From contig RCSZ01000002.1 of the NCBI GenBank assembly GCA_014898425.1, forward strand, positions 3,337,648-3,401,647: a stretch of DNA of 64,000 nt. The letters run 5' to 3'. The notes beneath the pieces were generated by a model that worked only from the letters and a program-made list of their open reading frames with translations, was not told where the DNA came from and made no database searches. Below, piece after piece: positions 2,353 to 62,764 of the stretch (the stretch's first letter is position 1; every line of letters begins with the position of its first letter). Both the position numbers and the translations under genes were made by a program. Source of the stretch: Botryotinia globosa. Taxonomy: Eukaryota > Ascomycota > Leotiomycetes > Helotiales > Sclerotiniaceae.

Positions 2353-2698
2353 CACTACTTGATTGCACGTCTCAGGACTTAAAGCTTCACTTCAAGAAAC
2401 ACCTCAACAAACTCGCCTTGAATGAATGAGAGATGGGCCTCCATTTTATCAGAGGTTCAGTACCATACTGATATATCTTATTAATCGTATCATTCGATCA
2501 TGATCAGTTGCGGAACTGCACATGTTCTTTATCCACCAATGCCCACGGAAAAGTATACCCGGGCTACCTGGCTACGGATAAGTCGAAAAGGCATCATTGA
2601 TGTATCCACAGCAATCCTGATTTGCCTTTAAAACCTCGAGTCTCCGCCAATGTGTTATTGAACAATACTAACAGAGACCCTCGCGATTTAAATTCATC
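2353..2698. promoter_or_regulatory. Divergent promoter with two TCCNCCAAT sites
   Basis: This 346-bp segment separates the start codons of the aldolase and the aldo/keto reductase. It holds TCCACCAAT at 2532-2540 and TCCGCCAAT at 2643-2651, both on the plus strand. TCCNCCAAT is the element described for genes induced by D-galacturonate in Aspergillus niger and tied to the regulator GaaR. The second site lies only 48 bp before the reductase ATG. Two exact matches in a short divergent promoter are suggestive, not proof. Confidence 0.6.
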
Positions 2699-3784: not shown

Positions 3785-4041
3785 ACACTATGCTAGTTAT
3801 CGTTGAATAGTAAAATAAGATTTCTTAATTTGCCAGATCTTGCAATAAACCTACCCGCTCATGACCGGATTTTAAATTTGTGGATGCAATACTTACCCGG
3901 GATCATCAGATCTACTGCATCCTTACCCCACCCTTCTTCCGGCCTCCCTCCGGGTCTTCGGAATCAGGCATTTATCTATCTGAGACCACATATAGTTCTG
4001 ACTTGCACGCCCATAGTTACATATTGATCACAGATTTCATT

Positions 4042-5328
4042 ATGCCGGAGATAGCATCAATCGAATACTTTCGTGTACCACCTCGATGGCTCTTTGTAAA
4101 AATCACAGACAAATGTGGCAATGTAGGCTGGGGCGAAGCCTCTCTTGAGGGCCATACCCAAGCCGTTGAAGGTTGTTTAGACGCTTATATTGCGAGATAC
4201 ACGGGCATGGAAGCTGAGTATGTGGACTTAAGATGCCTTATTAGTACATCTAATAACTAGTTGTAGTGATATTGAACATATATGGCAAATGTCTTGGAGG
4301 AGTGGATTTTATCGTGGAGGCCCGGTCCTCATGAGCGCATTATCCGGAATCGATATTGCTCTGTGGGATTTGAAAGGTATGCTTGATCAATTCATCTGAG
4401 TACTTAGACTAATTCCTTCTCCAGCTAGAAGATTAAATGTACCCATCTATCAGTTACTTGGTGGAAAAGTTAGGGATAAGATTAAAGTATACGCCTGGAT
4501 TGGTGGAGATAGACCTTCTGATATTGCCGGACAAGCGTATGTTGTCCCATAGTTTTACTGACAGAAGTTAATAAGAGTAGTCAGGCTAGAAAAGACCAAG
4601 GGTTCACAGCAGTCAAAATGAATGGTACAGAGGATCTGGGATGGTTTGACTCGCCATCTGCCTTGGATAGCTGTATAGAACGAGTGAAGGCTGTCAAAGA
4701 GCTTGGAATGGATGTTGGAGTTGACTTTCATGGTAGAGTTCACAAGCCGATGGCCAAGCAGCTAGCAAAGGCTCTGGAACCACATCGACCAATGTTCTTG
4801 GAGGAGCCACTACTTTCAGAACACATCGGTGGTATCAAAGATCTCTCGCAACTGACAAGCACCCCGATTGCCCTGGGTGAACGTCTCCACAGTCGATGGG
4901 ATTTTCGACCATTCCTTGAAGCCGGCGCTATAGATATTTTACAGCCAGACATTAGCCATTGTGGTGGGATCAGTGAGATGAAACGGATCGCTGCTATGGC
5001 CGAGACTTATGACGTCGCTCTCGCGCCGCACTGCCCTTTAGGGCCTATTGCTCTCGCAGCCAACATTCAGATCGCGGCGGCTTGCTCAAATCACGTCATT
5101 CAAGAAATGAGCTTGGGTATCCATTACAATGTCGGCGGGCAAGACCTTACGAGTTACACAACCAATCCAGAGGTCTGGAAGGTAACCGGCGGTTATATTG
5201 GTTTGATGAAGGGTTCAGGACTTGGCATAAATATTGACGAGGAGCAAGTACGTAGACTTTCTCAAGGAGCGGAGCCTTGGGTGAGCCCGGGGTTCATTGG
5301 CCCCGGCGGTGAAGTTAGAGAATGGTAA
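4042..5328 (+). CDS. dgoD: Sugar-acid dehydratase, mandelate racemase/enolase superfamily (D-galactonate dehydratase-like)
   Basis: Four exons (4042-4217, 4267-4376, 4425-4536, 4581-5328) give 381 aa, almost the length of bacterial D-galactonate dehydratase. The resemblance to DgoD runs end to end, for example YFRVPPRW at the start, [21 protein letters not shown] and [13 protein letters not shown]. The metal ligands and acid/base residues are present: Asp181 and His183 in VDFHGR, Glu207 in EEP, Glu233 in LGERL and His283 in APHCP. The reaction would be D-galactonate to 2-keto-3-deoxy-D-galactonate. It is not like the longer fungal L-galactonate dehydratase LGD1/GaaB (about 450 aa). It sits 257 bp downstream of the reductase on the same strand. 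Three ordinary fungal introns argue that any bacterial origin is old. No TCCNCCAAT site was seen in its own upstream region. Confidence 0.88.
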
Positions 5329-40895: not shown

Positions 40896-42549
40896 ATGAC
40901 AAGACCGACATCTCAATTGTTCCAACAGGTGCGTATTAGGCCAGAGGCCGGGAGCCATCAAATTGTTCAGGAGTGTAGCATCGAAGAAAGTGCACATGTC
41001 CAAGAGCAAGAAAAGTTTGAAGAGAGTTTACTGCAGAGATGTCCTGCCTATCTTTGGCCTGGGAATTCTTACCAACAAGGGTGTCCCCGGCCCATTTTGA
41101 TCAAAAAGAAGCACCAAAAACAACTAGAGAACTTGCATGAGGCATTGACTATAGCAATCACGGATATTGTCGAGAGATGGTGGACCGACCAAGATGCACA
41201 ATTTTATGATCGCATGCCTCTCGAACGACAAGAGGAAAGTCTTTTACGTGTGAGTTTGCCAGCCTACTAATGCCAGCCAATTGGATTCCAGTTTCCCCTA
41301 GTATTCTGATGGCTAATGACTCTTCAATTAGTGGATGGAAGCTCAAGTGATCGACAAGAAGCTCCCGATGTATCGCGAGTGTCGGGGTTCGTGGCGGCCA
41401 GACTTTCTTGTCGAAGACATGCTGGACGAGAATGGTGAAGCAATGGAAAACTACCGTATAACTGAGATCAATGCCCGCTTCTCATTTAATGCTTTCTTCC
41501 ATTCAATTTTTGGATACGAAGGCGTGGAAGACATGGGAGCTAGAATGAACGGATTGAGGTGTGCAACAGACCCAACAAAGGTAAACATTTCTGAAAGCCC
41601 CGGAGAGACAGTACAAAACATGAAGTGAATTATTTCTAACATTTGGTAGTTACTTGACGGATCCATCAGTCTCTTCCAGACGGAAGTTCCATTGCACATT
41701 CTCAAGGGTAAAGAACCAGGTATGGACATCCATATGCTTCTTCATGTTGTTCAACAGCGGTTCGGTTTCAGACCCAGAATCATCACTCCGGCACAGCTCA
41801 GGCTCTTCCCTCTTGATAATGGTAGTGGATATAAACTTTGTTGCTTGGTGGGGCAGAATGAAGAGATCTCCTCTTTAGCCTGGAGGACCAATATTGGCGA
41901 AGTCGTGGAGGAAATCCATCAGGTCGGCCTTGAGCTACATCAATCAGAGCTACTTGCCCTAAAGCCGGAGATGCTGCGTCAGATTAGTCTCCGTTGTTTC
42001 AATGACTTCCGTTCAATCTTTCTGACACATGACAAGCGAATGCTCGGTATCTTGAAGCAAGAGCTGGCTTCGCTGGTTTCGCGATGCGTGATCACTCGTA
42101 CACAAGCACAGATTTTAGATCAAGGAATCGCGGATACCTACCTTCCTGGATCAAAAGAACTGGAAAGAGTCTTTTGCCTTGCACAGCAGTTTCCCGATTT
42201 ACGAAATGAATTTATTTTGAAGCCAATTCGTAGTGGCAAAGGAGCAGGAATTGTGTTCGGTGACGAATTCACAGTCGAAGACTGGATCTCCGCCTTGCAG
42301 CTTCAACGGAGCACTCAGATAATATCGGGTGTTACCTGCGTAGTGCAGCGCCGCATTACTCCAAGACTCTACAGTCTTGTTCTGAACTCTTCCGATGTTC
42401 GTGTTCAATATCCCCTCATCGGAACATTTTTTGTCGTACACGGGAGATTGCTCGGCCTTGGTGCATGGCGCAGTAGTCCTGACAAGATCTGTGCTGTCAG
42501 TCATGGTGGAGCCTGGATTCTCTCAGTCATTTCTCAAGATGAAATTTAG
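40896..42549 (+). CDS. Unknown protein with ATP-grasp-like motifs
   Basis: Three exons (40896-41249, 41332-41580, 41650-42549) join without a phase problem to give 500 aa. I do not recognise the family with certainty. Two stretches look like ATP-grasp elements. ITEINARFSFNAFF (about 161-174) has the acidic/Asn pattern of a metal-binding site. FILKPIRSGKGAGIVFG (about 390-405) looks like the ATP-binding lysine and glycine loop. A third stretch, GTFFVVHGRLLGLGAWRSS, lies near the C-terminus. In canonical ATP-grasp enzymes the metal-binding E/N pair follows the lysine loop; here it precedes it, so a circular permutation or a different fold is possible. No signal peptide or membrane span. It is convergent with a TauD-type oxygenase gene 1.2 kb away, and an MFS gene follows, suggesting a ligase in a small biosynthetic cluster. 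That role is inference. Confidence 0.55.
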
Positions 42550-43771
42550 TTCTTTTGTAGCTTATATTTTGTTATCTTTATTACTTGAATAATTGGTCCT
42601 AATTCTTTTTCGGGTCGTTTCAAATCCCGTTTACTGCCAGCTCTGAACTTTGATCTACAATACTGTCACCGTTCAGTTCACAGGGAGACTGTGAGGAGTA
42701 TGAGATCATCCAATTTACACATTGTGAGTAGCTCAATTATTGCTTGGTTAATTCATTGGAGGTAGAGGAGGACCTGCATATCATTTCCGCGATATTAGAA
42801 GATTTTGAGGTCTTGAAATATGTAATATGTATCTTGCTGCGAGATGATGTCGCAGACAAAATTAAAACATGCTACAGAGCACACAGTACTGCTGAAGTGT
42901 ACAGAATGTGTACAACTTACAAGAAGAGGCTGATATCCGGCATCCACTGTCATTGATCCACCTTATTATTCACTGTTACATATATTCCGAAGAAAGTGTG
43001 ATTTCAGATACAAATCTGAGTTTCATTCAGCAGGTCATACTGCTTCCAGGAAAGTTTTACTTTCACAATGGAAGTCTCCATTAAAGAGATTCAATTGCAT
43101 GAGAAATCTCAATTCCAATGTTGCAATATCGGGAAGAAATGAAATCTAGAAATTTGAATGTCTTGGAAACCTTTCAAGATGAAAATGACCTTCAAGCTTC
43201 TGCTAAAAATTTCAAGATTGTAGAATTCGAATGATGAGCCTCTCTTCGATCTTTAATGAAGCTGTTGTACGGTGCAATAATAACGTGAATAACCCGAATG
43301 ATCTAGAAAATCAAATTTGACATTATTAGTAACAATTCACTAAATAATAACCGTAGAATGATTCAAACCGGTAGAGGTCCAAGTTCACAACCCGAGCCCA
43401 CTTTTTGATGATTGTCGTGCTTTTAGTCTAAATATATGGTATAATTCTTTACTAAATTTTCTGACAAAATTTGATGACATTTCAGTATCCGAAACATGAT
43501 TTTTCTCGGCTCTATAATATGATCACGCACAAAGTAAGACAACGCAGACTTCCAAGGTTTGTTTGTATGCCAACTATAACCTGAAAGAACTGATATATTA
43601 TGTAAGCATGTAAATTAGGGAAGTGAGAATGAACAGGAACAAAATTCACTGATCAGTCTCAAGTATGGTGTGGTTGTTGTGCAAGATATAGGTATACACA
43701 GCTGGAGTGATAAGGAACTACCAGTATTGGTTATAGGATGAGATAGTGAATTGTTATTACGGCAAGAAACC
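42550..43771. other. Intergenic between convergent genes
   Basis: AT-leaning DNA with no supported coding sequence or RNA. It holds the 3' flanks of the plus-strand gene ending 42,549 and the minus-strand oxygenase ending 43,772. Confidence 0.4.
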
Positions 43772-44744
43772 TTATTGTTTCAAAGATCCGAATGGCCTCG
43801 CATCCCATCGGACACGCCGGAGATGACGATTGGGGTCTTTAACCTCATTTCGTGAATGTAGCCATCGCCGGTTATCCATCATAATAATTGATCCCCTAGG
43901 GAGATTTTGGGGGGTCAAGTTGATGGTACATTCCTGAGCTGCTTTATCATACAAAATTGCTTTCAGTTCATTCAAGGCCTCAGCAGCCTCCGGAGTCAAC
44001 GGAGTTGTGATATCTTCCCGGAAACGTAGTTGATTCCCACCACCTGCTTCACGTCCCATCTGCAGTAGGTTTCCTACAATAAACTGCTCATCGCTCTTTT
44101 TTTGAAATTCAGGGGGAACGGCGATCATATAATTGGGGCTGGTAAGCCACGTTCGCGCGTGGGGTGAGAGTAAAGCGAGGAGTCGATCGACGCCCAATAA
44201 TGACAATGTCCCACCGCCGAAGCGATCTGGTTGAAGGACTTGGAGTGCAAAATAACGAGGCGGATGACTTTCATAACTGCAATCCGTATGCCAGTCAAAG
44301 CAAGACATCGTCTCCGAGCGAGCTTGGTGTCCATGACTTTGAACACTGCCTGGAGAGGGCCTAACATCCCAAAACCACCCGCGCTCGGCGCTGTGGTTTA
44401 TTGGAAGGCCATGGTTGTGCTTCTTATTGAGATTACGAATTAGATCTTGGAGATAAGAGCTTTTCTCATCCTCGAATCCTAACTGCAATTGCACTACCCC
44501 TCTTGTTTCCAGACTATCATGTATGGCTCTCAAGTGAGATGGTTGGAAGGCCGAGCCTAATTTGGAAACTTCAATCAAGGTAATGGGGCTGGAAACTTCA
44601 TGGTGCCCTTTTCACAGTTAGTAATATGAAATTATAAGGTCGGTTAAGGGGATTAAGACAAGGCATACTAATAGGTAAAGCTGTGGCAAAATGACTGGCT
44701 GTTGCCTGGGTTGCTGTATGACCAGCACGAAGAAGTCGCTGCAT
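43772..44744 (-). CDS. TauD/TfdA-type 2-oxoglutarate/Fe(II) dioxygenase
   Basis: Two exons (44744-44669 and 44607-43772) give 303 aa. Exon 1 (MQRLLRAGHTATQATASHF) is joined as LPI|RHHEVSSPITLIEVSKLG; the intron has GTATGC, a CTAAC branch point and AAAAG. The cupin core has the iron ligands His132 and Asp134 (FDWHTDCSYE) and distal His276 (RRWLHSRNEV). The 2-oxoglutarate arginines lie in HLRRVRWD near the C-terminus. The region RFGGGTLSLLG also fits. Known relatives hydroxylate or desaturate amino acids, taurine-like compounds or peptidyl units. The N-terminal basic Arg/His/Ala/Thr stretch might be a weak mitochondrial signal. It sits between the ATP-grasp-like gene and an MFS gene. Confidence 0.88.
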
Positions 44745-45680
44745 GATGTGAGAAAACTACTATTGCTTTAGAAGGTACTAAGAAAGGAGGAAGCGACGGT
44801 ATTGTCAGTTTCCTTCACTTTAAATAATGCTCACAAGGGGACGGACTCATCATCACTAATTCCAAAAAATTCTCAACTCAATGTTCTCACCAATTACGAA
44901 TTACTGAACGTTTCACAACTAAGGTTAAGGTAATTGCTACGCCGCCGGATTTGACTGTCAGACTTCATTTCGGGTTCGTAGCTTGAAGATTCAACACAAG
45001 CAGCCATGTTCATGAGATCTTGTCACATGATATACTCCATTTGGATATTGAAAATCCACTTTTTGGGAGAAATTGCATGGTATAGATTGATGAAAAAGAC
45101 ATTTTGAGAATTTCGGTCGATCAATGAGGCGTTTGTATGGGTTTTCAGCTGGAGGCATCATACCATGCATCACTAAATTGAGACTTGTACGCATGCTCCC
45201 AGGACCCAGGCTAAGCTTTGTATCGGACTAAGATACTTTCAGCAAGCAAAGAGATTCACATGAGTCAGGAAAGTAATAGTACCTTCAGATTTGCGTAGCT
45301 AGAAATAGCGGTAATACTCAATTTGTGTGTAAAATAACAAAAAGTAATGAACACATAACTCGTCAGTACCGTAACTCAAAACGTATTGTTCTGCATCATT
45401 TTCATACACTTATGTGCCAAGTAATATGGTGTATTCACCTGAAGTAAACTATGGCTCGATGTCGCACAGAAAATGTTTCAACAGCGACGATCCATTGAAA
45501 CCATCCTCGAAAGTTATTTCTGTGGAATGTGATGCCAACAACAACACTTACTATCCACGACTCCGGTCCTTGAAAGATATGTAGATCCAACAGATGGAGT
45601 CGAGCATTGTTTTAAACATCGACTCGTGTCATTTCCGCAGAATCTAATCGCTCATCACAACTTCAAATCAACTTTTCGTT
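44745..45680. other. Divergent promoter region of the oxygenase and MFS genes
   Basis: About 0.94 kb with no gene. The oxygenase starts leftward and the MFS gene starts rightward, so elements here could control both. No motif strong enough to name was seen. Confidence 0.45.
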
Positions 45681-47212
45681 ATGCCTGATTATTCTGAAAA
45701 GTCTTTACCCATAGGTTACAAATGGCGTTCATCCAAATGGTTCACCCTCTCAACCATCGCAATCGCGTTGTTTGCGGGTCTGTCTATTTCACCCCTTCTA
45801 GTCACATTTAAGATTAAACTAATACTGAACAGAAACTTTCCTGTATGGATTCCTTGTCCCAATTCTGGGGTATATGCTTGAGGAGCGTCTCCATGTAGAT
45901 CAATCTCAAATTCAGATATTCACATCTGCCGTACTTGCTCTCCATGGTGCGCTCGCCATGCTGTCCAGTCCCATAATTGGCCATTTTGCAGATAAGAGCC
46001 CGAACCGCAAGTTCTGGCTATTATTTTCTCTTTTATGGTGTGGCATCGGCACTTGTATGGTAGCCATCACTTATTCAGTCGCCATGCTGTTCATAGGGCG
46101 TGCAATGCAAGGAGTGGCTGGGTCTGCTGTATGGATCATTGGCTTTGCAACTGTTGCAAGCGTCTACGGAGAGAACGAGCGAGGGTTTGGATTGGGTATG
46201 ATGTCATCATTTGCTAACACGGGGACAATCGCTGGACCTGCTGTATCTGGTTTACTTTTAGAGGTTGCAGGGTACTGGGTGACATGGTCCGTTCCGCTCG
46301 TGATTTTAACAATTGACCTTCTCGCACGTATGATTATGATAGAGGCCTCGGATACAACTTCCAATTCGACTCCGGATAGTAATCCAGAGATGACGGGTTT
46401 ACTTCCTGCAAGAGGGGATGATCAAGATACGTCCGGAGCTGGAAGATTCTGGAGAATAATGCTGACTGATGGTCGTGTCGTTACCTGTTTATTGATGACA
46501 ATTACGAGTACAGCTGTGAGCACAAGCTTTAATGCCACTCTTCCTCTGCAAGTTCTAGAGATGTATGGATGGGGCCCTAGTATTGCTGGACTCCTCTTTG
46601 TCGGCCTGGTAGTCCCTGGACTTGTCATTGGCCCCCTAGCAGGCTGGGTTCGCGACCGATTTGGAGCACGAATTCCTGCTGTCTTTTGTTCTATCATTCA
46701 GGCAATATTTCTGGGACTTTTAGGTACTTCTGGTAGCCAGCCTGGAGGTGGTGCGCTCTACATAGCGTCGATCATAATTATAGGTGGCCTGCGACCATTT
46801 GTATCTGGCAACGCACCTGCTGAGTTGGTTGGTACGTCAGATTCATATTCCCACGATGTGACTATTATGACTGTTATGATAACAAGCAGGACCTTTAGCT
46901 GCTGGAAAAGCACTTCAAAAAAAGACACCCCTTGCTTTTGGATCCCAAGGGTGTTTGTCGCGCGTATTCTCCATGCTCGATGCTGGTGCATCTCTTGGGA
47001 TGACGTTGGGTCCTATTATAGGCGGTTCTTTCAAGGAATTGATCGGGTACCGATATATGAACTGGATCTGGAGTAAGATGTCTGTGCTCACTTTATTGAG
47101 TCGCTAATGAACAACGATAGGCTTCTTGTATCTCATGATTGCCGTTCTTGCTCTGTTCTTTCTTGAACATAAAGAGAAAGATGAAAGGCTTGACTTTGAG
47201 GAGAGGATCTAA
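45681..47212 (+). CDS. MFS transporter, DHA1/vesicular-amine-like
   Basis: Four exons (45681-45777, 45833-46831, 46890-47072, 47121-47212) give 456 aa. Exon 1 ends in the first helix, and the splice gives ETFLYGFLVPILGYMLEERL. Motif A occurs as GHFADKSPNRKFW. Motif C-like PAVSGLLLEVAGYW marks export in antiporters. The central loop is Asp/Ser/Thr-rich. The second half has GPLAGWVRDRFGARIP, then ELVGPLAAGKAL and MLDAGASLGMTLGPIIGG. The acidic/basic tail ends FEERI. This subgroup exports drugs or amines. It is divergent from the TauD-type oxygenase and is the natural exporter candidate for the three-gene cluster. A hairpin element lies 190 bp past the stop codon. Confidence 0.88.
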
Positions 47213-47402
47213 CAAAAAAAGTCTACACCAGAATAAGACGCCGGGGAATTTTTTTTTTTTGCTTGGAGATAGCTGAAGACAGCCCAGGACGTGAAGTTAG
47301 AGCTACTTGAATTTAGCCTCAGGTCCACCCCACCCATCATGGTGTGGCTTAGCACGAAATATTAATACCTTAGTGGAGCTATGCGTAACCGTTTTTATAT
47401 GG

Positions 47403-47493
47403 TATACAGAAAAACTTGGCTATACCGGACTGGGATATACCGGATTTGATTGGTCGAAAATCTCAGTCCGGTATAACCAAGTTCTTCTGTATA
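47403..47493. repeat. Near-perfect 30-bp inverted repeat (hairpin mini-element)
   Basis: The left arm 47,403-47,432 and the reverse complement of the right arm 47,464-47,493 agree at 28 of 30 positions. Both mismatches are transitions. Arms contain TATACCGGACTG, and the 31-bp loop repeats ATACCGG once more. RNA or single-stranded DNA from here would fold strongly. It lies 190 bp downstream of the MFS gene and may be a tiny foldback transposon or a structured 3' element. Confidence 0.75.
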
Positions 47494-47748
47494 TATTATG
47501 TATATACGAGCTTTTTCTTGGCCCTTCGGGGGTAAAAATAACAATGGGCTCGCTGACGCTGCCTGTAGTTATTTTTCATGTCTTTCAGAATCTATGTCTA
47601 TACTTGTACTGCGTACCTTTTAGAATCCTAAAAATAAATAAGATTTATATTCTTTAAAATGTAAATTTTGAAGCTATTCAGAGATTGTAAGCTTTTGAGG
47701 TCGTGGTCTGTACACCGGTCTAGGTGGAGTATATTCAACTTTCAACCC

Positions 47749-48272
<524 letters not shown>

Positions 48273-51200
48273 TTTCTTTTTATATAGAAATATTGATTAC
48301 TTTAATTAATAAATCCAGATATGAGAATGTAAAGGAAAATAATTAAAGAAAAAAAAACAAATATTGCTTTTATTTAATATAATTAATTCAATAAGTATTT
48401 CAGAAGAAAAATAACTTTATTAAAATTTAGTAAAATTAAATAACTTTTTAATAGAATCTTAAAATCAAATATTAATAGGAATTTGATAGTGAATTTTTTT
48501 GTTTTTTTGGGAGGAAATTAAAAGATCCGGAATTTTTTTAGATTTCTATAAGTTTCTTGGAGTTCTTGGGGATTGATAAGGAGAATTGGATTTTTGTACT
48601 TTATTTTTTTGGTCTTTATCCTTTAAAGAAATTACTATCCTTTTCAATCTTCTACTTTTTAAAATATTGGAAAATCCTCTATTATTCTATCTAAAGTTAG
48701 GGCTATCTTTATTATTATTATTATTTGATAGGATTGGTTTGTTTTCCTCTTTTTCATTAAACTCAAAATATTTGTTATTATATCTATCCTCCAGGTTTTA
48801 TTTCAAAATTACAAAATACAACTTATTCTTATAATATCTTTCAATAGATTTGACATCCTCAAAAGCATATAAAAAAGAGCTTTTAATATCTTTTATATAA
48901 TATTAATATCAAATATTGAATTCATTATTATTTATAAAAAGAAATCTAATAACTTTTTTAAATATAAACAAATTGTTTTAAAAAAACTTATTAATGAGAA
49001 TTTATTCAATAGGATTTTAAATAATTAAATAATATTTAACTAAAAATCCAGAAACTTTATATTAATTATTATTAATAATATATTTATCGAAAATAGATTT
49101 CAAATTTTGATATATATTCTTAATATCTTGATATTTCAATTCATTTCCTAATATAGAATTCAAATCATCCCCTAGAAATCTTTTTATTATAATATACAAT
49201 ATAATTAATATTATAAAAAAAACAATATCTTTATTATTAAATTTGATTTTGAATATTACAAGATTCCTTGTAATTATAAATGCTCAATTACAATTAGTTT
49301 TTTTAATAAACTATATCAAAATAATTAAATGAATGTATTCTATATAATCTTTTTTTAAAATAATATTCTGAAAATAATCTTTTTTGAAAAACTTATTAAA
49401 TATTCTTAAAATAGATATAATAAGATTTTGCTATATCGTTTCTTATTCCGATTCTGATTTTATTTTATTATACCCTATTTCATATTTTGATTTTTTAAAT
49501 TAAAAATAAACAATATATATAATAAAATTATTTATATATTTAAATTAATACTTAATATAAAATTCTTTTACATTTCTATATACAAATATATAATCGAAGG
49601 TTTTATTAGATTGAATAATAATAACTAAAAAAGAAATAAAAATAAAACGAAATTCTTGATTTATATATTACAATATAACAATTCGCTAAATTTTTAAATT
49701 CCATTTAAAGGCTTATTATATTAAAAAGTAATAATAATAATAAACAAATCCGAATCCTATATTTTTATAGTGATTGTAATAATAATATATTTTTATAAAT
49801 TCTTAAATCAAAGAAATATAGACTTTTTTAATAAAATAAAGATATTTATTGAATTCCATAGATTTATATACTTCGAGTTTATAGATTGTAATCAGACTAA
49901 CAATAAAAACTTAAACAATCATAAATATAGCAATACTATATTTAATAGATTTGAATTTTAATATATCAAAAAGCTTCACTCTTTTTTTCTTATTAGTTAT
50001 CATATTTTCTTTGAATCAATAGAAATATTTATTATTGATATAGATATCATCAATTCAGTTTTAACGTTTATATAAAAACCAAAAATATTTTAACAAATCC
50101 TTTCAATTTATACATATAGTTTTGAATCCAAGAATATTAATAAATTGATATAAATAATAGTTATAAAGATTATTAAATATCTTATTTATCAATATCATTA
50201 TTATTCTTTAATTTATTTGTTTTACAATATATTTTTCTTTCAATAAGTAAAACCAATTTTATAATTATAGAATACCTTCTCCACATTTGTATATTTTAAA
50301 TTGGTTGATATCATTATCCTTATCTTCTTCATCTTTATTTTCTAATAGGATATCTTATCGAGATATAATTTTGTTTATTAAGTATTTGTTGAGTGATTTA
50401 ATGTTTTCGTTTATTATTATTAAATTAAATCTTAATTACCTTTAAAAATTTATAAAAATGTTTTTTGAAGATAAAAAGAAAGGAATTTGTAAAAACTTAA
50501 TAACTAAATTTCTAATAAAAAGAATATCTTTGAAATAGTCTATACTAGCTTTTCCAAATATTCCAATTATATTATATTGAAACCCAAATTTTCTTTTTTG
50601 CTTATTATTCTATTCAAAAAGTTTATTAGAAAACTTTTTGTTTAGAATTTTAAAAGTAATTTTGAATTCAAAGAATATTAAATATCAATTAACTCAAATC
50701 TTAGATTTTGAGTTTTTAGAAAATCTGTATATAAGTTTCTCATTAATTAATTCCAATATAGTTTTTGGAGTAGTAATTCTAATTAGTTTAGAAAACTCAT
50801 TATGAAATTTCATATTATAAGATATAATCAAAATTATAATAAACATTATATCTTTCTGCAAATAATTTCAATATATATAAATTTTGTTAATAATCTTTTG
50901 CCATAGTTTATAGGATTTTTTTATTTTAAAAAGGATAATTTCATTATCGATTTTTATTTGCTTTATTATTATATAAGTTTTGATATAAAGATTATTTTAT
51001 AAAATTAGAATCATAACTATTTCTATCAATATATCTACTTTAGTTTTCTATTCTTCTATTTATATATTAAACTTAATGAATTTTATATATTATTATTCTT
51101 TTAAAAGTCTTTATATAATTTCAAAAGCTTTTAATATATTAAAAAACTAAATATCATTAATTATTATCACTATATTGTAATATATATATTGTAATTGAAT

Positions 51201-54200
51201 ATCTGAATATTATATAATATAATCTAATTTATTATTAGATTATTCAAACATTTTAAAAAGGTTTTTCAAAAAAGGTAATTTTATCAAAATTTAACAAAGT
51301 TATATGAGTTATTTAAAGAAATATAAAAGAAAATCGCTCTATATATAATAATAAAAGATTGAAGTATTAAAATAATTAGAAAAGAAGGTAATAAAGAAAA
51401 TAAAAGGATTATAAATTAGTGGAAATATTAGGAAAAGAGAAAAAAATGTTTTTATTTTATAAACAATTTTCTTTATTCTATAATACTAAGAAAAGAAATA
51501 TAGGAAATGATTTCTAAAAAAAGAAGAAGAAAAAAAAAAAATTATTTTTCTAAACAAAGGTAAATAAACATTTTTTTCTATTGAAGGAATTTTGCAGGCA
51601 ATTACTTTTCTTATTATATAGAGAAAAACACTGTTTTTATTACTAAATTAATGGTTAGGATTTTTATAAATATATAATAAATATTTCTTGAAATTGTATT
51701 TAGGGATTCTAGTGTATTATTTGTTTGTATATAATTAATTATTGCTTTTGAACTATCAAAGTATTAATTTATATAATTAGATCTTTGTGATTCTAATAAT
51801 GTTTCTAACAGATCTTTATAATCTAATTGGTTGTTATTTCTTTTAGTATTATCATTTGAAATTGGTAAGTATTCTCCTTCTCTTTTTACAAATTTCTTGA
51901 AGTGAGATTTTGAATAGGTTTTATCAATTAAGGTTTTATTTATTTCTTTTAAGATATAAATATTCTTATTAGGATTTATAGTTATTATTTGATATAATTT
52001 AAGTTACCAGTATATAAGCTTCTTTTTGTGTAATATATTAATTTTTGATTATAGATTGTATTAGAGTATAATATCTTTTGGATTGATATTTTTGTTTATT
52101 ATATTATTATTTCTGTTGAAATACTTTTTTTTATTTAAGTAATAGTGTTTTTTATAAAATACAATTTCTTTTATATTAATATTATATATTTTTAATTATT
52201 GGAGATGTAATATTAATAGATTTGCTTAAATTATTATTAATTTCTAATTAAGGATTCTTTAGGTATAAAATTTTATTTTGATAAATAGTATCAAATAATA
52301 GTTATAGATTATATAAAATAGAATAAGATTAGTTGGTTAATGTGTTATAATCTTATTAACAAATAATATTGTATTAAGATATTTTAATTATTCTCTTTTT
52401 TTATTTATTATTTTAAATAATCTATTAACAATAAGTCTATAATCTTATTCAATTTGATTATTTGCTTTAAAATTGTATACAAAGATTTGTATCTATTGAA
52501 TATTATATTTTTTTAAGAAATATATTATATATACTTTATTCTCTAGGCTATTGTTTATTAAGATTTTATTGAAAATAAAATAATAACAAATAATAAACCA
52601 TATAAAAACAATTACTATTTATAAAGTTATATTTCAAAAAGCTTTTTTTTTTATTCATTTTAATAAATTATTTCTAAGGAGTATTAGATATTTGTAGTTA
52701 TTATTCAGGGATATATATATAATATCTAATTTATATTTTTGCTAATATATATTTATCTATATTAGATGTAAAAGTTCTTTTTAAAGATTCGATTATTGTA
52801 ATTGATAATTTGAATAGGAATTAACAAATTTCTTAATAATATTATATATTCCTATTTAATAATACAATTATAATATTTTATTGAAAATACTTTTCATTTC
52901 TTTATAGTTGTAGGCTTTATGTAGATTATTAATAAAGGCAATTTATTTCATTTTATTATTGATCACTTTTCTAAAAAATAAATATTTTGTGCCAATCTTG
53001 AAAAGATAATTATTATGAATATAGAATTCAAGAACTTTTTTTTTAAAATTTCTGAAAACCTTTTTTGTTATACTTTTAGATTTTTATAGTAAAATTAGAT
53101 ATTTAGTTATTTCTTGATTTTCTTTATTATATATTAGATTTAACATATAATTTTATTCAAATTTAATAAAATTATATAAGACGAGAATATTTTGAATATT
53201 ATTGAGTTTGTTAATAATCTATTTATTAATATTATTTTTTTGAGCTTTTTTTTGTTGAAGTTTTGTAAGAATATTTGATTTATAAAAAAGTTCATTTGTT
53301 GTAATATATATTGTTCTTTTTATATATTGAATTTTGAAATCAAAAAATCTGATTTATATAATTTATTTTATTATTAGGGCTTCTGGGAGATTTGTTATTG
53401 CTTTATTCAGTTGAGCAATGAGAATCTTAATATCAGTTTTAAGGATGAAATATATTTTGTATAAATTATATCTATATTTCCGAAGAGTTTTGAGTATTCC
53501 TCTATATTCTTTTTTTGTAATATTATAATTCTTTTCTGTATCATTCTATAGTCTACTTTTAAATCTAGTTATTATACATTTACTATTGAATTTTTGATTT
53601 AATATTGTATTCCAATTGTTAAGATTAATATCTACATTTAAAATGATTATTCCAATTATTAAAGTATCTTTATAATTTAATAGCATTAAGGCAGAAGGTT
53701 TGATTAGTTCAATCTTTAATAAATCCATAGTATTTTTCTATTTTCTTATTTATATAAATTCCTAATCTTTTTTTAATAGGTGGTATAGTGGTTTAGCTTT
53801 TTGAACAAATTATTCGATTCAGATATAATAGTATATATATATATCTAAAAACATATAAACCTTTATAGCATCCCTAGATTCAAATCAATTTATAATCCAA
53901 GCGATTTTTGATTATTATAAAGTTTGCTCTTCAAATTCTATAATATATTCTATAATTTCTATATTATCGAAATACTATTTGGATTTCGCTTCAATTGAAC
54001 ACCCTACCCTTTCTATATATTCCAAGGTTTTATTGATTCTTTGAATATATATAAAAATAAATTTCTATACTCTAGATATAGTTTTCTCATTACTGAAATC
54101 AGTCTTAAATCTTTTTATTCCTATATTATCTAAAAATAGTATAATTATTTTAGAAATTAAATCACCTAGAATTTTTATAATAATTCTATAAAATTGAATA

Positions 54201-57200
54201 ACAAAGTTAATAACATTTTGTGGTAATATTGTATAATATAGTAATCCAAATGGTATTTGAAAAACAATTATATTACAATTTTCTATAATTAAAAAAATCT
54301 GATTGTAATTTAAAAAGAAATCAATTAAGAAAGCGACTTAATATTCTATGAAGTTTTTTGTAAAGGTATTAACATTTGAAGATAAATTTATATTTCTAAT
54401 CGAATATTTATTGAATTCAATAATTATATTTATAAATTTATAAATACTAAAAATCTTTTTTTTTATTAAGAATCATAGATTTCTATAAAAACCATCTATA
54501 TATTCAAAAACTTCTTAATTTATTTTTTCTTAAAACATTTTAGATATAATCTTAATCAAAACTTTTGGAATAAGAAATCCAGATATTTATTAAGCTTTAT
54601 ATAAAACAATTTATATTTTCTGTAAAGGAATTATTTTTTCTTATATTCATTCAATATATATTTAATCAAAAACAAACATTTCTTTTTGATTTAACAAATA
54701 AACAAATAATAGTTTTTGTTTATAAGTAGAAAGTATTTTTCCAAAATCTATTTCTTTATATTTATCTATAATTAAACAATAATTTTCAGATTCCTTATTA
54801 AATCGTAGAATTAAATAATTTTTCTATTTTTCTAAAGATTGTAAATAAGAGTTTTTTTCCTTATATCTCTTTAATTAATTATTTTTCCCTTCTGGTCTTT
54901 TGTTTGTAAGGTTTCTAGATTGACTTGAAGAAAGTATTTTATTTGTTTTATTTTTATATAAGGTATTTATATAAAATAAAAGATAATTTTGTTAGAATTC
55001 GATAAAATTATTTTCTAGTGAGAAATATAAATTTGTTCCGATATATTATCTCTTAGATATATCAAACTTTAATTTTCCAGATTTGAGATTTAAAAGGGTA
55101 TAGTTGTTTTTTATTCAATATACTAAATGCTTACTTAGTTTTTTCGATTATTATTTATTATTGTAATATATTGTAATTCATTTTTATATATAAATATAAT
55201 TTCATTTATAATAAACTATAATATTCTAAATAACAAATTATTATATATATTTTCTATTACAAATAAATTAATAATATTTAATATTCCTTTAAGAGATATA
55301 TATATATTCTTATAAAAACTTCTGATATTAATTTCGAAAGGATTAATTTTAATAATAATAATCTAAATCAAACTAATTAATAGATTGAATTTTATAACTA
55401 AATTGATATCGATTAAATTGATAATCAAACCAGAATCTGGAATTGTTTTAATAGAATCTTAATTATTAAAAGATATTTTGATATAAGAAAGATTTTTTTT
55501 GTTATTTTTTATAAGAATATAAGTAAAATTATAAACTATATTCAAATAAAAAGCTTTTACAATTCTAATTTATTTTGAAAATTTAAATAAAATAGAAAGT
55601 TTATTGATTAAACTTATTATATAATTATTAAGAATTAATAATCTTATCAAATCATCTATTTTTATAATCTATCTTTTCTATATATTAAGGTATTCTTTGA
55701 TAATGAAATCTATAATAATAAAGATTATAATCAATAAAATGTTTCAATCGATTTCTTTTATTATTCTATAATTATTATTTATTATTTGAAGAATCATTTA
55801 TCTTCTAAACTTTTTGATTTTATTTAATACTTTTTTGATTACAACTTTTATTATAGAATTCTTAGAATTATAAATATAGATTTTTATTAATTCAATCTAT
55901 ACAAACTCTTAAGAGGATATCTCAATTATAGATTGTTGATTGAATTTAAGAATTTTATTTGTAAATAAAGATATAAATTTCATAAAGACATTTAGATATG
56001 ATTTAATTATTTTATCTAAATTATTATAAAATAATCTTTCATATTTTCTTTATACTTTCTTTATAGTATTGATATATTCTTAAATGGTATATACTTTTCT
56101 TTTTAATATAATATCAATAGATTTTTTCTTGATATTAATAAAATATAATATTTCTTTATTTTTAAAGAGTTTTAACTAATTGTTTTGAAAAACTTACAAC
56201 TTAATTATTTTTATTAAACTAGAGTCGATTTTATTATTATATATAATTAGAATAGGATTATCTAAATTATCTATTAGCTTTTATATTAGTTATTTTAGTT
56301 TATTATAATATATAAATTCTCTATTGAAATATTCTCTAAAAATCGGGTAATCTTTTTTTAGAATGTAATCTTTATTATTAGATTATTTGTTATTGTAATT
56401 ATAATATATTCTCTTATAAATTGTATATATAGCTTTTATTATTTCTAAATTAATAATAATGTTAATAATAGTAGATATTATAATTTATATAGATTTATAA
56501 ATTAAAATCTAAAATACTTTTATTATTTTTGAATTGAAAAGAATCTAACGAATTTTAATTTTTCCTTTAAACTTGAAACCTGATTGTATTTGTTTTTTTA
56601 TAATAAATATAAAATTCTCAAAAACTTTTGTTATTTTCTCTATTTCATTATTTTTTTGAATTATTAGGATTTTTATTTTATTTCGAATCTTTATAAATGG
56701 AGTAATAAATTCCAATAATTTATTGAAATTAGAATCTTTATTATTGTTTATATTAAGAAGGATATATTGGGATTTGTTTTTAGTATATTAAATTATCTAA
56801 TTAAATACTTTATTTCAATCTATTATACTTAGTTATTTCATATTGTATTTAATTTAAATAATATATTTTTGAAAGGTTTTAAAAAATATATTTTTGAGAA
56901 ATAATTCAATAACTTTATTTTTTGTTAAAGCTTTATCTTTAATTAATTACTATACAATTTGATTATATTATTTAACAAAACGATTAAGATTATTATATCT
57001 AATATCTTTTTTTTATCTATATTTTTTAATAAATTTTTATAAATATTCACAAAAATATATTTTCTGAAGGATATTATTATTAAAATACTTTTTAAAGAAA
57101 ACAGATTTAAAATGTTTTTCTTAATTTTATTTTTTAAATTGTTATTTCTTTATAGTTTTAACCTCCTCCCAAAATATATAATTCATTTATAAAAAGATTT

Positions 57201-58504
57201 GCATTTGAAAATTTTCATTTGGAATATAATAATTTTGTTAAAATTATTCTATATTTTTATATTACTTAGTAATATTAAAACCTTTGAATTATAATATACC
57301 AATAATTTCAAAAGATAGTATTAGAAATATAAGAATTCTTAAAAAATATTCTAGAAAAATAATGAATTACTAAATACTGAGATTCCTTTTCAAAAGTTTT
57401 GAATTAAAGTTTTTATTAGGTTTCTTACTCTTATTTGTTTTTCGATTGGATAAAAAAGGAATATTTGATTTGAAAATATCCTTTTTGAAATTGTTTATAT
57501 TGAAAATGTTAGGGTTAATTGATAAATTTAAAGATTTCAAATCTATAATTGAATAATTATTCTAAATCTTAGATTTATTATTAAAATCGGAGGTTGATAT
57601 AATATAGATTTTATTATTATATTAAGTGATTTCATCTTTATTAATAAATAATTATAATAATCAAATGATTATATAAAGATTTAAAAAATCTTTGATATAA
57701 TATAAATAAAGATTCGATTATTATTTTATTCACCCTTCTTTTAATAACTTTATCAAATTTTAATAAAATTATTTTTTTTTTTCAAACTTGTATAACCACA
57801 AACTTGTTTACAAAAATTCAAAAATATAGATTAACAATTTATTCTAAAAAATTCAAATCTCAGATTTCTTTTAAAAATATATCTGGAAATTTATTTTTAA
57901 AAATAAAAAGATTATTTTTATAAATAATCCTTTCAATTAGATTGAACAATATAATATTTTTGATCTCAATATAAATTGTTTTTGAATTTCTTAAATTGAT
58001 TAAATTCCATCTAGATATAAATATAACCAAAATAATCTTGAAAATTCTAAGTAAATTCAATATTTATTAAGTTTTGAATACAAAAATGAATACTAATCAA
58101 CAAATCTTAGATTCACTTTATAAAAAAAAACTTTTTTCCCTCAAAATCAAATCTTTATCTAGATTTCTGTAAATTCTACAAACAACAAAATTCTTATAAT
58201 TTGTTTTTGTAATCTTTCGAAAAAAGTAAAAATAATCCAATCAAAAACAATCTCATTTTTAATTTAGATTTATACAAAATTACAGATCGATTTTGAGAGT
58301 GGGATATTTGTTTTTCCTCCCTTTCCTTTTGTTATTGGATTATTATTATTTTAATTCTATTGCAATATTGAATAATTTCTTGTTTCTCTGTTTTCTATTG
58401 ATTTTTTCAAATTAATAACTTTTTGCTTTCTAAAGCAATTCAAGAGTTTAGATTTATATACAACTTTCTAACCTTTCAACATTTTTCTTTACGTAGATCA
58501 CTAA

Positions 58505-58743
58505 TATAAAAAAATAGAAAGTAATAGAATTATAAAATAATTCTTCATATATATTATAGAAAAATCATTATAATATATTGCCTCAAATAAAAAAGAAAAG
58601 GAGGAAACTTTACATAACACTTTACAAAATATACTAGAAGTTTGATGAGTGGGAACTAACTGCTCTTTCTAAATTATAAGGAAAAGGGCTATAAATACTA
58701 GCTACAGAAGTGGACCACGTGACCAGTACAAAGATTCGCTCAC

Positions 58744-58744
<1 letters not shown>
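58505..58744 (-). repeat. LTR (right, 5' LTR of the minus-strand element)
   Basis: 240 bp. Nearly all differences from the left LTR are C/T or G/A. The outer half (toward 58,744), with GGACCACGTGACC, is well preserved and the inner half is AT-converted. Confidence 0.9.

Positions 58745-58829
<85 letters not shown>
58745..58829. repeat. (AAT)n microsatellite, right portion
   Basis: 85 bp of the same trinucleotide as at 47,751-48,032, directly abutting the right LTR. It is followed by degenerate ATT-rich copies up to about 58,870. Confidence 0.9.
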
Positions 58830-58831
<2 letters not shown>

Positions 58832-60880
58832 GTATTATTATTATTTATAAACTTATTATTATTTATAAACTTTACTAATCTCTAGCTTCTAGGTTATATA
58901 AAAGCATTAAAGATATAATTAAACTTTAAAACCTTCAAATCTTTTAAATCTTATAACCTTCAAATCTTTTAAATCTTATAATCCTTTTATAATCCTTTTT
59001 ATAATTCTCTCTTGAATTCTTTTTCTAATTCTCTTCTTTTATTTTTGTCGTTGGTCATTCGCTTAGCGTGGGATAAGCTAAGCCGAATTGGGAATAGTAT
59101 TAAAATAATATTATATTGGAAGCTTAAGCTGATAGAATAAATAGAGTTTATTATTATTGTATTGTATTATATATTCTTGTGAATATATAAAAGTGGGTAC
59201 TAGAAAAAGATCTGAATATAGAGACTCAAGCCACTTATTTATACTTTTTCCTATCCCCTGTACATAGGTGGCGCAAGCCTATAATATGTATGTGGTGTAC
59301 TTGAAAATTCTGATTTTGTAATCAATTTTATCAATTTTCTTTATTGATTTATAATTAATTTTTATAATAAAGAAAAAGGAAAAATAATATTATACGATAC
59401 TGCGTCTGTCATTCCGTATTTGGACTAGCTCCTATGTCATATTTCAATTTTTTCAAAATAATGAATTATTATTTTGAATAAAGAATTAATAAAGGATTTC
59501 TTTTTTAATAAAGAATTCTTTATTTTTATTTTATAATAAAATTCTTTCTTATATAAAGAGAATAAAGAATATAAGAAATTTTTCTTATATTATTGAATTT
59601 TTATTATTTTATTATAATAATAGAATTTTATCATTATAATTAGTTCCTTTAATATTATAATAATATTAAGTGATTTAATTAATATTTATTAAAAATAATA
59701 ATTTTCTTTTCGATTCTTTTTCTAATTCTTTTTCTAATTTTTTTTTTTCATTATCTTTTTAATTTTTTTTTAATTCTTTTTTTAATTTCTTTTCTTTGAT
59801 TCTTTCATTTTTTGTAGTTCTTTTTATTTTCTTTTATTCTTTTTTTCTTCTAATAAATCTAATAAATCTAATAAATCTAATCCCCTCCTCTTTCTAATCC
59901 CCCTCCTCCTCCCTCTCCTCTTTCTAATCCCCCTCCCCTTCCCCCTCCTCTTTCTAATCCCTTCCTCTTTCTAATCCCCCCCTTTCTAATTCCTTATCTC
60001 TCTTATCACAAATCCCAAACCTCCAAATTAATCAGAAATATTTAATCAATTCTCTAAAAAATTTAAATCTTTAAATCTTTAATCTTTTTAATTCATTTTT
60101 TAATCAATTATTTCTTCTATTAACTAAAACTTATCAATATAAAAATTATGTTATTCAAAAGCTTTTAATTTATAAAATCTTAGAATATCTTTTAATTTCA
60201 TTTTATCAATCCTTTACTTTTGATTTATTATTTCTTAAAATCTTTTCTTAAAATCTAGAATTTTTATATTCCCGCATAAATCTTATATACTTTCTAGACC
60301 AATGAGCTTCTAGTTATGAATCGTGTTTTAAATCCTGTATGTTAGGGATTATATAATTTTTTATATGATATACTTTTTTTATACGATATAAACTTTTTAT
60401 ATGTTTATAATGAAATTTCGAAAAAGCTTACTAAGTATTAGAATTATTTCACTATTTTTTTGATGAATATTAAATAGGATTTTAAACAAGAATTTTTCTT
60501 ATTCAAATTAGTATTCCTTAGGGTGTAGTAATAATATATATTAATTTAAAAAAATATAAAATAAAATATAATATATATATATATATATATATTTTCTATA
60601 TTCATGAAACAATTTTTTTTGTTTTGAAGTAAAACTATTTCTAATTTTAGAAATTAATTCAATTAATTCATTTTATTTTCGAATAATCATTTTATTTTCA
60701 ATTAAAAAAATTTATATTATATATACATACAATATAATATTCATATATAATATTAATATAGAAGCAAGCGATACACTATATAAAACTATTTATATAATGT
60801 AAATACATTTACATAATTTAGACATTATTTATATATCATATTATATCGGTTAAGCATATTACTACTAAGATAATTACTGG
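58830..60880. repeat. AT-rich degraded repeat DNA with a less decayed island
   Basis: Mostly A/T without coding potential. A piece around 59,040-59,290 keeps ordinary composition, including GCTTAGC/GCTAAGC (an inverted pair near 59,062-59,086) and CCTATCCCCTGTACATAGGTGG. It may be the unmutated rim of another transposon. A TA dinucleotide run lies near 60,570-60,592. Confidence 0.6.
59700..60000. repeat. Polypyrimidine tract with CTCTTTCTAATCCCC minisatellite
   Basis: About 300 bp in which the plus strand is overwhelmingly C and T. First come T-rich blocks, then four AATAAATCT units (59,853-59,880), then at least five CTCTTTCTAATCCC-type units (59,887-59,990). C-rich DNA surviving in a RIP desert is unusual, and the tract could adopt triplex structure. 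Confidence 0.8.
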
Positions 60881-61249
60881 AGATCTAGCCCCACTTGCAG
60901 CCTTCCAAATAAACTGCTTTCCATTACGTCCACTTGTGAGCTCACCGCCAATCCAGAACGAAGTGACACTTAATTTATTGGGAATAATTGAATTTGAAAA
61001 GCCTTGGAATTATGAAGGAACCTCAAAATCATGGATCGTTGAAACCCAAGATAATCATCGCGCAGACACACGCATCAGAAGAAAGCAAAACTTTATATAC
61101 AAGGAACTGGAATAGATCATGCGAGCACGCATCAACTGGTAACGGCATCGATTTCGATTATATCTACTCTCACTCATTTGAATTGCCAATTTCACCAGCG
61201 ATATGCTGGCAACTTCGCAACCTGAAACATTCAATGCGTTCAACATAAC
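60881..61249. other. 3' flank of the AMP-ligase gene
   Basis: Ordinary composition returns at about 60,880. No separate gene is supported. Confidence 0.4.
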
Positions 61250-62764
61250 TCAGTGCCAACGGTCCACAAATTTGATTACTTTTCCCGCAGTAATGCTTCG
61301 CTCGAACCCATCCAGATTATCCAGGAACACAATTCGTGCCAGATGTTTGTTTTCTGGTATAATGAGAAAAAAGCTCTCTAATCGTTCTGTCAAAGTTTGA
61401 ACAGAGAAGATATCATCTCTTGGAGGTGATCGAAGTAAACGGATTTCCAGGCTTGCTTGCGGTGTATCATCCAACCGGTCCAAGATGATTTGCCATTGCA
61501 AGATACCATATTGCCTTTCTCGCATGAAAGCTTCAATTCTCTGAAACTCAAAATAAGCAGCATACCACTTGAAGCTGAATCGATGATCACGCCCTTGCAT
61601 ACGTAGAATACGTAGAAACTTCCTGTCAAACTCAGGATCAACAACCGGAGCAGTATCTGGAAGTGGATGAATAGAGCCAATGTCGCCGGTGATATAGCGT
61701 ACTAGTGGGTTGCGCAATCTTTGAAGCGAAGTTTGCACTATGAGACCTTTCTCTCCTTGTGGAAGGCATTTGGAAACGAGTGGAGCTATATCATCACTGA
61801 CGGAAGTGGGAAAAATCTCTAGCAACATACTTCGCGTGTCAAAGATGAAGTCGGTGGTGATTTCTGTAACATTTTGCTCTCCAGTCAGCTTTGGACTGCT
61901 GATTGCCCAGGGACCTGCTTCAGCACTACCCATTATGGAGAAAATCATGACATCCCCCAGCACAGACTTGATAAATACGCGTTGAGGACCGGTCAATGGC
62001 TCTGAGGTGTAGATGATCTTGTTCAGAACGACACGCTCACGATCTTCTTTCGCCATCATTGAGATGTGTTGGACAGTCTGAACAATTTGGCTACCGTCGC
62101 CGGTGAGAGCGTTGACATGATAGTTAGCTAGAGATTGTACAACTTCGGCGGGTGGCATGTAAGCACCGGCGCTAAGCACAGTTCCTCCTGCATTCTCTAT
62201 AATTTCTGTTGTTAGATCTAGTGATCTTATATATGTCAGTGTCTCCGGGATAAGGATGAAAAAGCTATTCATGGATTATAATGAAGTACCTGTAAAACCC
62301 TCCAGCCAAGTGAGTAGACAACACCAAGTCTTTCGATTCAATTACACCACAGATCCTAAGTAAATCTCCCATCCGAGCCCGCTGTCGACGATTCTCATGC
62401 ACGTCTACGGCGAACATCATGGGAATAGCGCCAGATCCACCGCCAGTAATACTCATGTATGAGCCATAGCGATAGGTGTTCCTGGGATCCACATCATGAG
62501 TGAGTCTTTCAATTGATTTGTACCTGATTAAAATTAGTTCCCGAATGCAATCATGTTTAATGTGGGTGTGAAAATGACACACAGTATTTTTTTATCAAGC
62601 AATGGCTGTTGTTGAAAATCTAATTCCTTTTCTTTACTGCGAGCAGAATCCTGAAATTTCGTTACTGTTTGTGAGTCGGCTGGGTATAAAACATTCTCAT
62701 TATAGAAAGGATGATTTTTCGCAACAGCCAGTACTTCTGCCAATGAGTACGTTCCTTTAACCAT
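61250..62764 (-). CDS. Phenylacetate-CoA-ligase-like AMP-dependent enzyme
   Basis: Three exons (62764-62583, 62523-62290, 62225-61250) give 463 aa. The segment SITGGGSGAIP (in exon 2) is the P-loop-like AMP-binding motif of the PaaK group. TEIIENAGGTVLSAGAYMPPAEV, the exon 3 stretch FSIMGSAEAGPWAIS (acyl-adenylate motif) and RYITGDIGSI (with the ribose-binding Asp) follow. The C-terminal domain ends in SITAGKVIKFVDRWH, where the catalytic lysine is expected. There is no carrier or reductase domain. The enzyme would adenylate an aryl or acyl acid and perhaps form its CoA thioester. The donor of intron 1 is GTGTGT; its phase restores ILYKSIERL. The gene sits alone on the rim of a transposon desert, so its pathway is unknown. 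Confidence 0.85.

Follow-up and report, generated by a model that had tools for sequence, protein, structure and literature searches.

The terminal 64 kb of contig C2 of Botryotinia globosa (the whole stretch analyzed, 64,000 nucleotides, referred to below as the window; the contig has 3,401,647 bases and the genome 45.7 Mb in 27 contigs) carries what is very probably an E-64-type (cp) biosynthetic gene cluster of a Botrytis species. Laboratories routinely use E-64 to inhibit cysteine proteases. We observed in this window genes for an ATP-grasp ligase, an Fe(II)/2-oxoglutarate (2OG) oxygenase and a major facilitator superfamily (MFS) transporter side by side and, beyond a repeat element, a gene for a ligase of the ANL family. 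We favor the E-64-type reading because oxygenase, ATP-grasp ligase and ANL enzyme together are the published minimal cassette of Cp1A, Cp1B and the ANL-family amide bond synthetase (ABS) Cp1D (PMC12568646). An earlier note on this DNA had announced an undescribed three-gene cluster. Neither term can be kept, as this kind of pathway was published in 2025 (PMC12568646) and the window has a fourth gene, for an ANL-type ligase, at 61250-62764. The locus is a further case of that pathway kind, with an attached transporter gene, a splitting insertion and a fused paralogue elsewhere in the genome. By analogy, its most likely products would be epoxysuccinyl-amino acid-amine inhibitors, and the note's proposal of an amino-acid-derived small molecule, made independently of nonribosomal peptide synthetases (NRPS), appears probable.

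The enzyme genes and the published E-64 pathway

The three neighboring genes that had been claimed at 40896-47212 are present, intact and spliced, and span 6.3 kb from the start of the ATP-grasp gene (40896) to the end of the MFS stop codon (47212). The Cp1B-like ATP-grasp ligase gene (40896..42549, plus strand; exons 40896-41249, 41332-41580 and 41650-42549) encodes 500 aa; the Cp1A-like Fe(II)/2OG oxygenase gene of the TauD/TfdA family (43772..44744, minus strand; exons 44744-44669 and 44607-43772) encodes 303 aa; and the MFS transporter gene (45681..47212, plus strand; exons 45681-45777, 45833-46831, 46890-47072 and 47121-47212) encodes 456 aa. All three models have GT-AG introns and no internal stops, their splice sites having been picked by eye and by homology, from genomic sequence rather than transcripts. 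The ligase and oxygenase genes are convergent, and the oxygenase and MFS genes diverge across a 936-bp gap. The single additional open reading frame of at least 100 aa within the trio, of 101 aa, lies antisense inside the ATP-grasp gene. At E <= 1e-3 we found 472 relatives of the 500-aa protein, 585 of the oxygenase and 153 of the MFS protein (for the MFS protein, scoring was restricted to the 7,997 candidates with most shared words), and because relatives number in the hundreds the three genes are not chance reading frames.

The 500-aa protein matched no family in a Pfam scan against a local copy, but PF28486 is carried by all 120 of its best 120 relatives (of 472), some of which are named "Circularly permuted ATP-grasp", "ATP-grasp domain" or "Glutathionylspermidine synthase" in their source records. 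The sole Protein Data Bank (PDB) sequence that it matched at E <= 10 was 9cjn, "Ligase Cp1B" (E=2.4e-169), with 255 of 492 aligned residues identical (51.8%); an A. flavus protein among the relatives (P0047) equals the Cp1B chain at 495 of 497 residues. In E-64 biosynthesis Cp1B serves as the ATP-grasp ligase, and alanine exchange of its R139, D141, E163 or N165 abolished or strongly lowered activity (PMC12568646). These 4 positions are identical in all 123 aligned ligase rows (120 listed relatives, the window protein, its paralogue and Cp1B). Its homology to Cp1B, whose crystal structure is described as ATP-grasp, runs over the full length, and the protein is on this ground predicted to belong to the ATP-grasp superfamily and to have its three-domain fold with a glycine-rich loop; the ATP-grasp-like identity suggested in the earlier note, for which it had named a family check, is borne out by homology.

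That note had also singled out 2 stretches of the protein, and both are where it saw them, KPIRSGKGAG at residues 392-401 and EINARFSFN at residues 163-171. The latter includes E163 and N165. The former maps near Cp1B residue 395, within domain C (365-443) of the crystal structure (PMC12568646), and its first Lys and three Gly are kept in 123 of 123 rows, so it may be a nucleotide-binding glycine loop. The closest listed relative of the ligase, among the best 120 of 472, is from B. tulipae (P0001; 95.6% identical), and a search of bacterial and archaeal genomes with that protein gave no relative among 49 pattern-matching stretches. Some source records misname the ligase "Taurine catabolism dioxygenase" (P0004, P0011, P0014) or "multidrug transporter" (P0046, P0048), perhaps as spill-over from neighbor genes or through gene-model fusion.

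The TauD-type assignment of the second gene was likewise supported, both by family (Pfam TauD PF02668, E=2.9e-16) and by residues. H132 and D134 are kept in 122 of 122 rows, H276 in 121 and R292 in 119, and this His-x-Asp...His set with an Arg is what we take to be expected for the family. Its best PDB sequence was asparagine oxygenase 2og5 (E=1.6e-10), followed by clavaminate synthase (E=0.00058). The closest listed relative, among the best 120 of 585, is from B. byssoidea (92.4% identical). Such oxygenase genes adjoin PF28486 ligase genes, and elsewhere are fused to them. Cp1A converts fumarate to (2S,3S)-trans-epoxysuccinate in the E-64 pathway (PMC12568646).

The fourth gene (61250..62764, minus strand; exons 62764-62583, 62523-62290 and 62225-61250), a putative Cp1D-like gene of the ANL family, was detected by tblastn with the ANL-type protein of a second copy of the cluster on contig C1. 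It is intact, with two GT-AG introns and 463 aa that are 40.7% identical to the C1 protein, and the 2 kilobases that bear it have a GC content of 0.42-0.44. A Pfam scan of the ANL-type protein gave no family. A profile of the two ANL-type proteins matched phenylacetate-CoA ligases (E=6.5e-5 and 0.00025; 0.0074 with the single sequence); a benzoylformate decarboxylase match of the same profile (E=0.0025) was regarded as chance. The protein contains the stretches SITGGGSGA (a glycine loop), YITGDIG, GRDHRFSFK and, near its end, GKVIKFVDR, which we take to be ANL core motifs. An AlphaFold2 prediction for the third exon alone, made without an alignment, had a mean confidence score (pLDDT) of 30 and was not used. 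We also considered an ANL remnant between ligase and oxygenase genes, but tblastn at E <= 10 matched nothing in those 1.2 kb. In searches of the fungus's own genome at E <= 1e-3, the ligase, the oxygenase and the ANL-type protein were each found at two loci only, in the window and on C1.

The closest known system is that of the E-64 clusters cp1 and cp2 of Aspergillus flavus (acp1 and acp2 of A. oryzae; Liu et al. 2025, PMC12568646). Like these, the window holds an Fe(II)/2OG oxygenase, a Cp1B-type ligase (52% identical, catalytic residues kept) and an ANL-type ligase on a single contig; unlike them, it has an MFS gene inside, an ANL gene that is split off, a different ligase pocket and no Cp1C decarboxylase. 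In its logic, compared by description, the pathway resembles that of the bacterial dapdiamides, in which two stand-alone amide-forming enzymes, the ATP-grasp enzyme DdaF and the ABS DdaG, replace an NRPS. Yet by the published account Cp1B has no detectable sequence identity with other characterized ATP-grasp enzymes and Cp1D has no sequence similarity to characterized bacterial ABSs; AnkG, a proposed fungal ATP-grasp ligase, is a distant relative of Cp1B (~30% by the published figure, against 52% for the window ligase) (PMC12568646).

If substrates, products and step order are carried over from the characterized homologues, the oxygenase would make (2S,3S)-trans-epoxysuccinate by epoxidizing fumarate, or by desaturating and epoxidizing succinate. 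The ATP-grasp enzyme would convert one carboxylate to an acyl phosphate and couple it to the amino group of an L-amino acid, after which the ANL-type ligase would adenylate the free amino acid carboxylate and couple an amine such as agmatine, putrescine or cadaverine. The MFS protein would export the product, which might then alkylate the active-site cysteine of papain-like proteases, the presumed targets.

The repeat element, the second copy and linkage in other fungi

The gap between the MFS and ANL genes measures 14 kb, and the sequence from 48001 to 61000 has a GC content of only 14-23% per kilobase. Most of it is a repeat element of 10.7 kb, which extends from about 48029 to 58747 (no strand assigned) near the end of the contig. 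A 6-kb piece of the element recurs at 24 other places in long copies, 81-84% identical and 22 of them near the full piece; 25 places were scored from 57 candidates, the window being the 25th. Direct repeats of 239 bp, 76% alike, mark its ends (48030-48268 and 58502-58740). By these terminal repeats and dispersed copies, the element is a decaying, LTR (long terminal repeat)-retrotransposon-like sequence. It looks as if inserted into an AAT microsatellite, which is found on both sides (47750-48033 and 58744-58868), and two shorter repeats flank it (~47495-48030 and 59040-59700). The TpA/ApT ratio was 0.85-1.02 in the 14 kilobases of 47001-61000, against 0.51-0.80 in six gene-bearing kilobases. 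Because the second repeat-induced mutation (RIP) index was above 1 in 12 of those 14 kilobases, repeat-induced mutation in the region is best described as possible. The ANL gene was overlooked in reading by eye because the element separates it from the trio. For the 1.2 kb between the ANL gene and the contig end (62770-64000), we found no other copy in the genome; more cluster genes could sit beyond that end.

The second copy (C1:1433063-1439569), detected by a ligase search of the same genome, resembles the window in encoding all three enzymes, with the ANL-type gene intact, and differs from it in that ligase and oxygenase are fused in frame to one protein (C1:1437063-1439569). The ANL-type gene (C1:1433063-1434547; 462 aa) lies ~2.5 kb off on the opposite strand; an apparent frameshift in it was dismissed, since an unrecognized 49-base intron accounts for the break. 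Relative to the window proteins the copy is 38% (ligase), 48% (oxygenase) and 41% (ANL) identical, and its ligase has the glycine loop KLTGSGKGKG and the pocket GLCI. A ligase-oxygenase fusion is also found in Metarhizium rileyi (P0072, 803 aa, PF28486 plus PF02668). B. cinerea, S. borealis and Monilinia fructigena hold another enzyme clade (P0008, P0009, P0143, P0148, P0167, P0247). The Sclerotiniaceae thus seem to hold at least two cluster types besides the fused copy.

The trio genes are neighbors in related species too, in agreement with the synteny that the earlier note had named as a check. For this we compared by eye the locus tags and longest-contig entries in the best 120 rows of each of three lists, so that the counts, which rely on serial tags, are lower bounds. 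Relatives of the ligase, oxygenase and MFS protein share a contig in at least nine other records: Botrytis porri, B. aclada, B. fragariae, Ciborinia camelliae, Sclerotinia borealis, Rutstroemia sp. BBW, Penicillium hordei, P. pulvis and a 57-kb metagenome contig. The three tags are consecutive in B. aclada (EAE96_003730/31/32) and B. porri (BPOR_0630g00060/50/40), and fall in a run of four numbers in Ciborinia (NHQ30_004630/28/27) and of five in S. borealis (SBOR_9157/61/60). The ligase tag stands near the oxygenase tag in P. hordei (N7537_008248 and 008250) and in P. pulvis (N7503_000392 and 000391), where, the MFS tags not being shown, the link to the MFS gene is a shared megabase-scale contig and is accordingly weak. 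In Aspergillus and other lineages, with few such MFS rows among the matches listed, the MFS link is not established. The MFS protein itself matched PF07690 (E=9.8e-46), with its closest listed relative, among the best 120 of 153, in B. tulipae (96% identical). By this linkage, we infer that it exports the pathway product.

Further context comes from B. cinerea, in which the ligase counterpart is BCIN_03g00090. In a Monilinia transcriptome (PMC5987419), three transcripts that match the counterparts of the cluster enzymes were assembled in M. fructigena only, and not in M. fructicola or M. laxa: T10358, assigned to Bcin03g00090 (expression value 43.2), T10360, assigned to Bcin03g00080 as a taurine catabolism dioxygenase (34.2), and T10344, assigned to Bcin03g00060 as a phenylacetate-CoA ligase, paaK (23.2). 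The enzyme counterparts are thus near neighbors in B. cinerea by their numbering, and in one Monilinia species they are present and transcribed together. The order 00060-00080-00090 agrees with that of the window, ANL, [MFS], oxygenase, ligase, and the window ANL gene would then be the counterpart of Bcin03g00060. The domain IPR042099 is presumably the AMP-dependent synthetase-like N-terminal domain. Bcin03g00060 falls under it with one paralogue, Bcin08g01790 (PMC11173184), a pair that parallels the two ANL-type loci of the genome studied here. In the oxygenase tree the Monilinia protein P0167 clusters with S. borealis and a single B. cinerea T4 sequence, next to the window clade; being outside that clade, it suggests a second cluster type in the family, to which the Monilinia set may belong.

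For trees we chose, by similarity to the query, 65 of the 123 ligase rows (leaving out Penicillium P0041 and P0102) and 46 of the 122 oxygenase rows. In the oxygenase tree, 97% of bootstrap trees united the 13 Leotiomycete rows (branch support 94/78); these are nested, together with eight Penicillium rows, inside a starred clade (98/98), and Penicillium requires at least 4 label changes on starred branches alone. In the ligase tree P. hordei, the sole Penicillium kept, was sister to the Leotiomycetes (100/100), apart from the Aspergillus Cp1B. Within the limits of this choice of rows by similarity, the phylogenies point to a putative transfer, in either direction and in one or more events, between Penicillium-like fungi and the Sclerotiniaceae and their kin.

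Points against the E-64-type reading and alternatives to it

Several observations weigh against the E-64-type reading. To our knowledge, no such product or activity is known from Botrytis. We found no cp1C-like decarboxylase in the window, where we take Cp1C to be a member of PF02784, matches to which lie only on contigs C3 and C10; the amine would therefore come from general polyamine metabolism. However, Cp1C is dispensable, and general polyamine metabolism was the suggested amine source in an A. nidulans strain without cp1C (PMC12568646). The MFS gene is outside the published cassette, and the main text of that paper contains neither "transporter" (0 occurrences) nor "Botrytis". The window oxygenase appears to be of the Cp1A kind by family and residue set rather than by direct alignment. 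Similarly, the ANL gene is probably a Cp1D-like ABS, as judged from its family, its genome context and the B. cinerea annotation rather than from an alignment. With respect to co-expression, which the earlier note had proposed as a check, the answer is positive only through the single Monilinia data set, and a single species in a single data set does not amount to a correlation. In the same data Bcin03g00050 (ribonuclease H-like) and Bcin03g00140 (a retrotransposon) are likewise M. fructigena-only, so the whole chromosome region may differ rather than be co-regulated, and an MFS transcript matching Bcin03g00070 was not found in the passages of that paper (PMC5987419).

Two further points on the same side lead to alternatives of their own. 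The ANL gene lies ~14 kb from the MFS gene across a decayed element, whereas ligase, oxygenase and MFS genes are packed within 6.3 kb. Conceivably, therefore, the trio alone is the working unit, whose exported product would be an epoxysuccinyl-amino acid (a pseudodipeptide acid), and the ANL enzyme is unused or active elsewhere. We think this improbable: the ANL gene is intact, with its two introns and normal GC content, and its B. cinerea counterpart is three numbers from the ligase, with matching transcripts found together in M. fructigena (PMC5987419). The same 10.7-kb element, near the contig end, could mean instead that the cluster is decaying, and silent or non-functional in this strain. 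This, too, seems unlikely to us, as full open frames and splice sites are found in all four genes, catalytic residues are kept in ligase and oxygenase, and the ligase is 95.6% identical to that of B. tulipae. The other point is that the proposed amino acid pocket of the ligase is unlike that of Cp1B at 4 of 4 positions (F175 to H, V228 to M, V477 to A and I488 to V), as might be expected if the same enzyme families made another product class, by joining another dicarboxylic acid or a polar amino acid, that is not a cysteine protease inhibitor. An A. nidulans strain without the oxygenase made malic and fumaric acid analogues (PMC12568646), and thus the downstream enzymes are not strict. Yet H is the commonest state at position 175 (94 of 123 rows), and occurs in the A. 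parasiticus group, four rows 52-54% identical to Cp1B with the pocket HITV. Our guess, by way of the ~50% identity of cp1 and cp2, is that these are Cp2B-like ligases with an aromatic preference, and the cp2 cluster still yields epoxysuccinyl compounds (PMC12568646). We therefore give another product class only a small chance.

Taurine catabolism is what database names and the Monilinia paper imply, since the oxygenase has Pfam TauD, the name "Taurine catabolism dioxygenase" recurs in source records, and T10358 and T10360 were interpreted as taurine dioxygenases (PMC5987419). We reject it as hardly credible. Asparagine oxygenase and clavaminate synthase head the PDB matches of the oxygenase, and none of the 10 chains at E <= 1 bears the name taurine dioxygenase (weak evidence, from a single-sequence search); the taurine name sits even on the ligase, which is no oxygenase; and the neighbor genes are the published E-64 cassette.

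Other genes of the window and meaning for the Sclerotiniaceae

Elsewhere in the window, the segment 7937-16789 encodes a Zn2Cys6-type regulator (PF00172), then an NRPS-like protein with AMP-binding C-terminal, carrier and NAD-binding reductase domains; after it, at 16.2-16.8 kb, is an MFS-like gene with a weak match, under the Pfam cut-off. This looks like a separate small cluster. The NRPS-like gene (10.8-14.2 kb), more than 26 kb distant, was rejected as a partner in the E-64-type pathway. At 1316-5328, a DHDPS-family gene, an aldo/keto reductase gene and an MR_MLE-family gene adjoin one another, in what we take to be a resemblance to the galacturonate catabolism genes of Botrytis.

The analysis shows "taurine catabolism dioxygenase" to be a misleading name for an ATP-grasp ligase, contributes a natural ligase-oxygenase fusion enzyme, and illustrates how a repeat insertion can hide part of a cluster from reading by eye. 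Among the matches listed, as judged by title and abstract start, our literature searches gave no report on E-64-type metabolites of Botrytis or plant pathogens and, for ATP-grasp/TauD metabolite clusters of fungi or Botrytis, only one review and papers on other fungi. An intact gene set with a linked transporter, in a genus of necrotrophic plant pathogens, is a direct test case for whether such pathogens produce small-molecule inhibitors of plant immune proteases. As a tentative and rather doubtful extension, the Sclerotiniaceae, including grey-mould fungi, may have acquired a transporter-equipped E-64-type cluster from a Penicillium-like fungus and may use the secreted epoxysuccinyl inhibitor on papain-like cysteine proteases of plants or competitors, with the variable ligase pocket tuning the inhibitor from species to species. 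If true, this would be a small-molecule counterpart to the protein inhibitors secreted by other plant pathogens.

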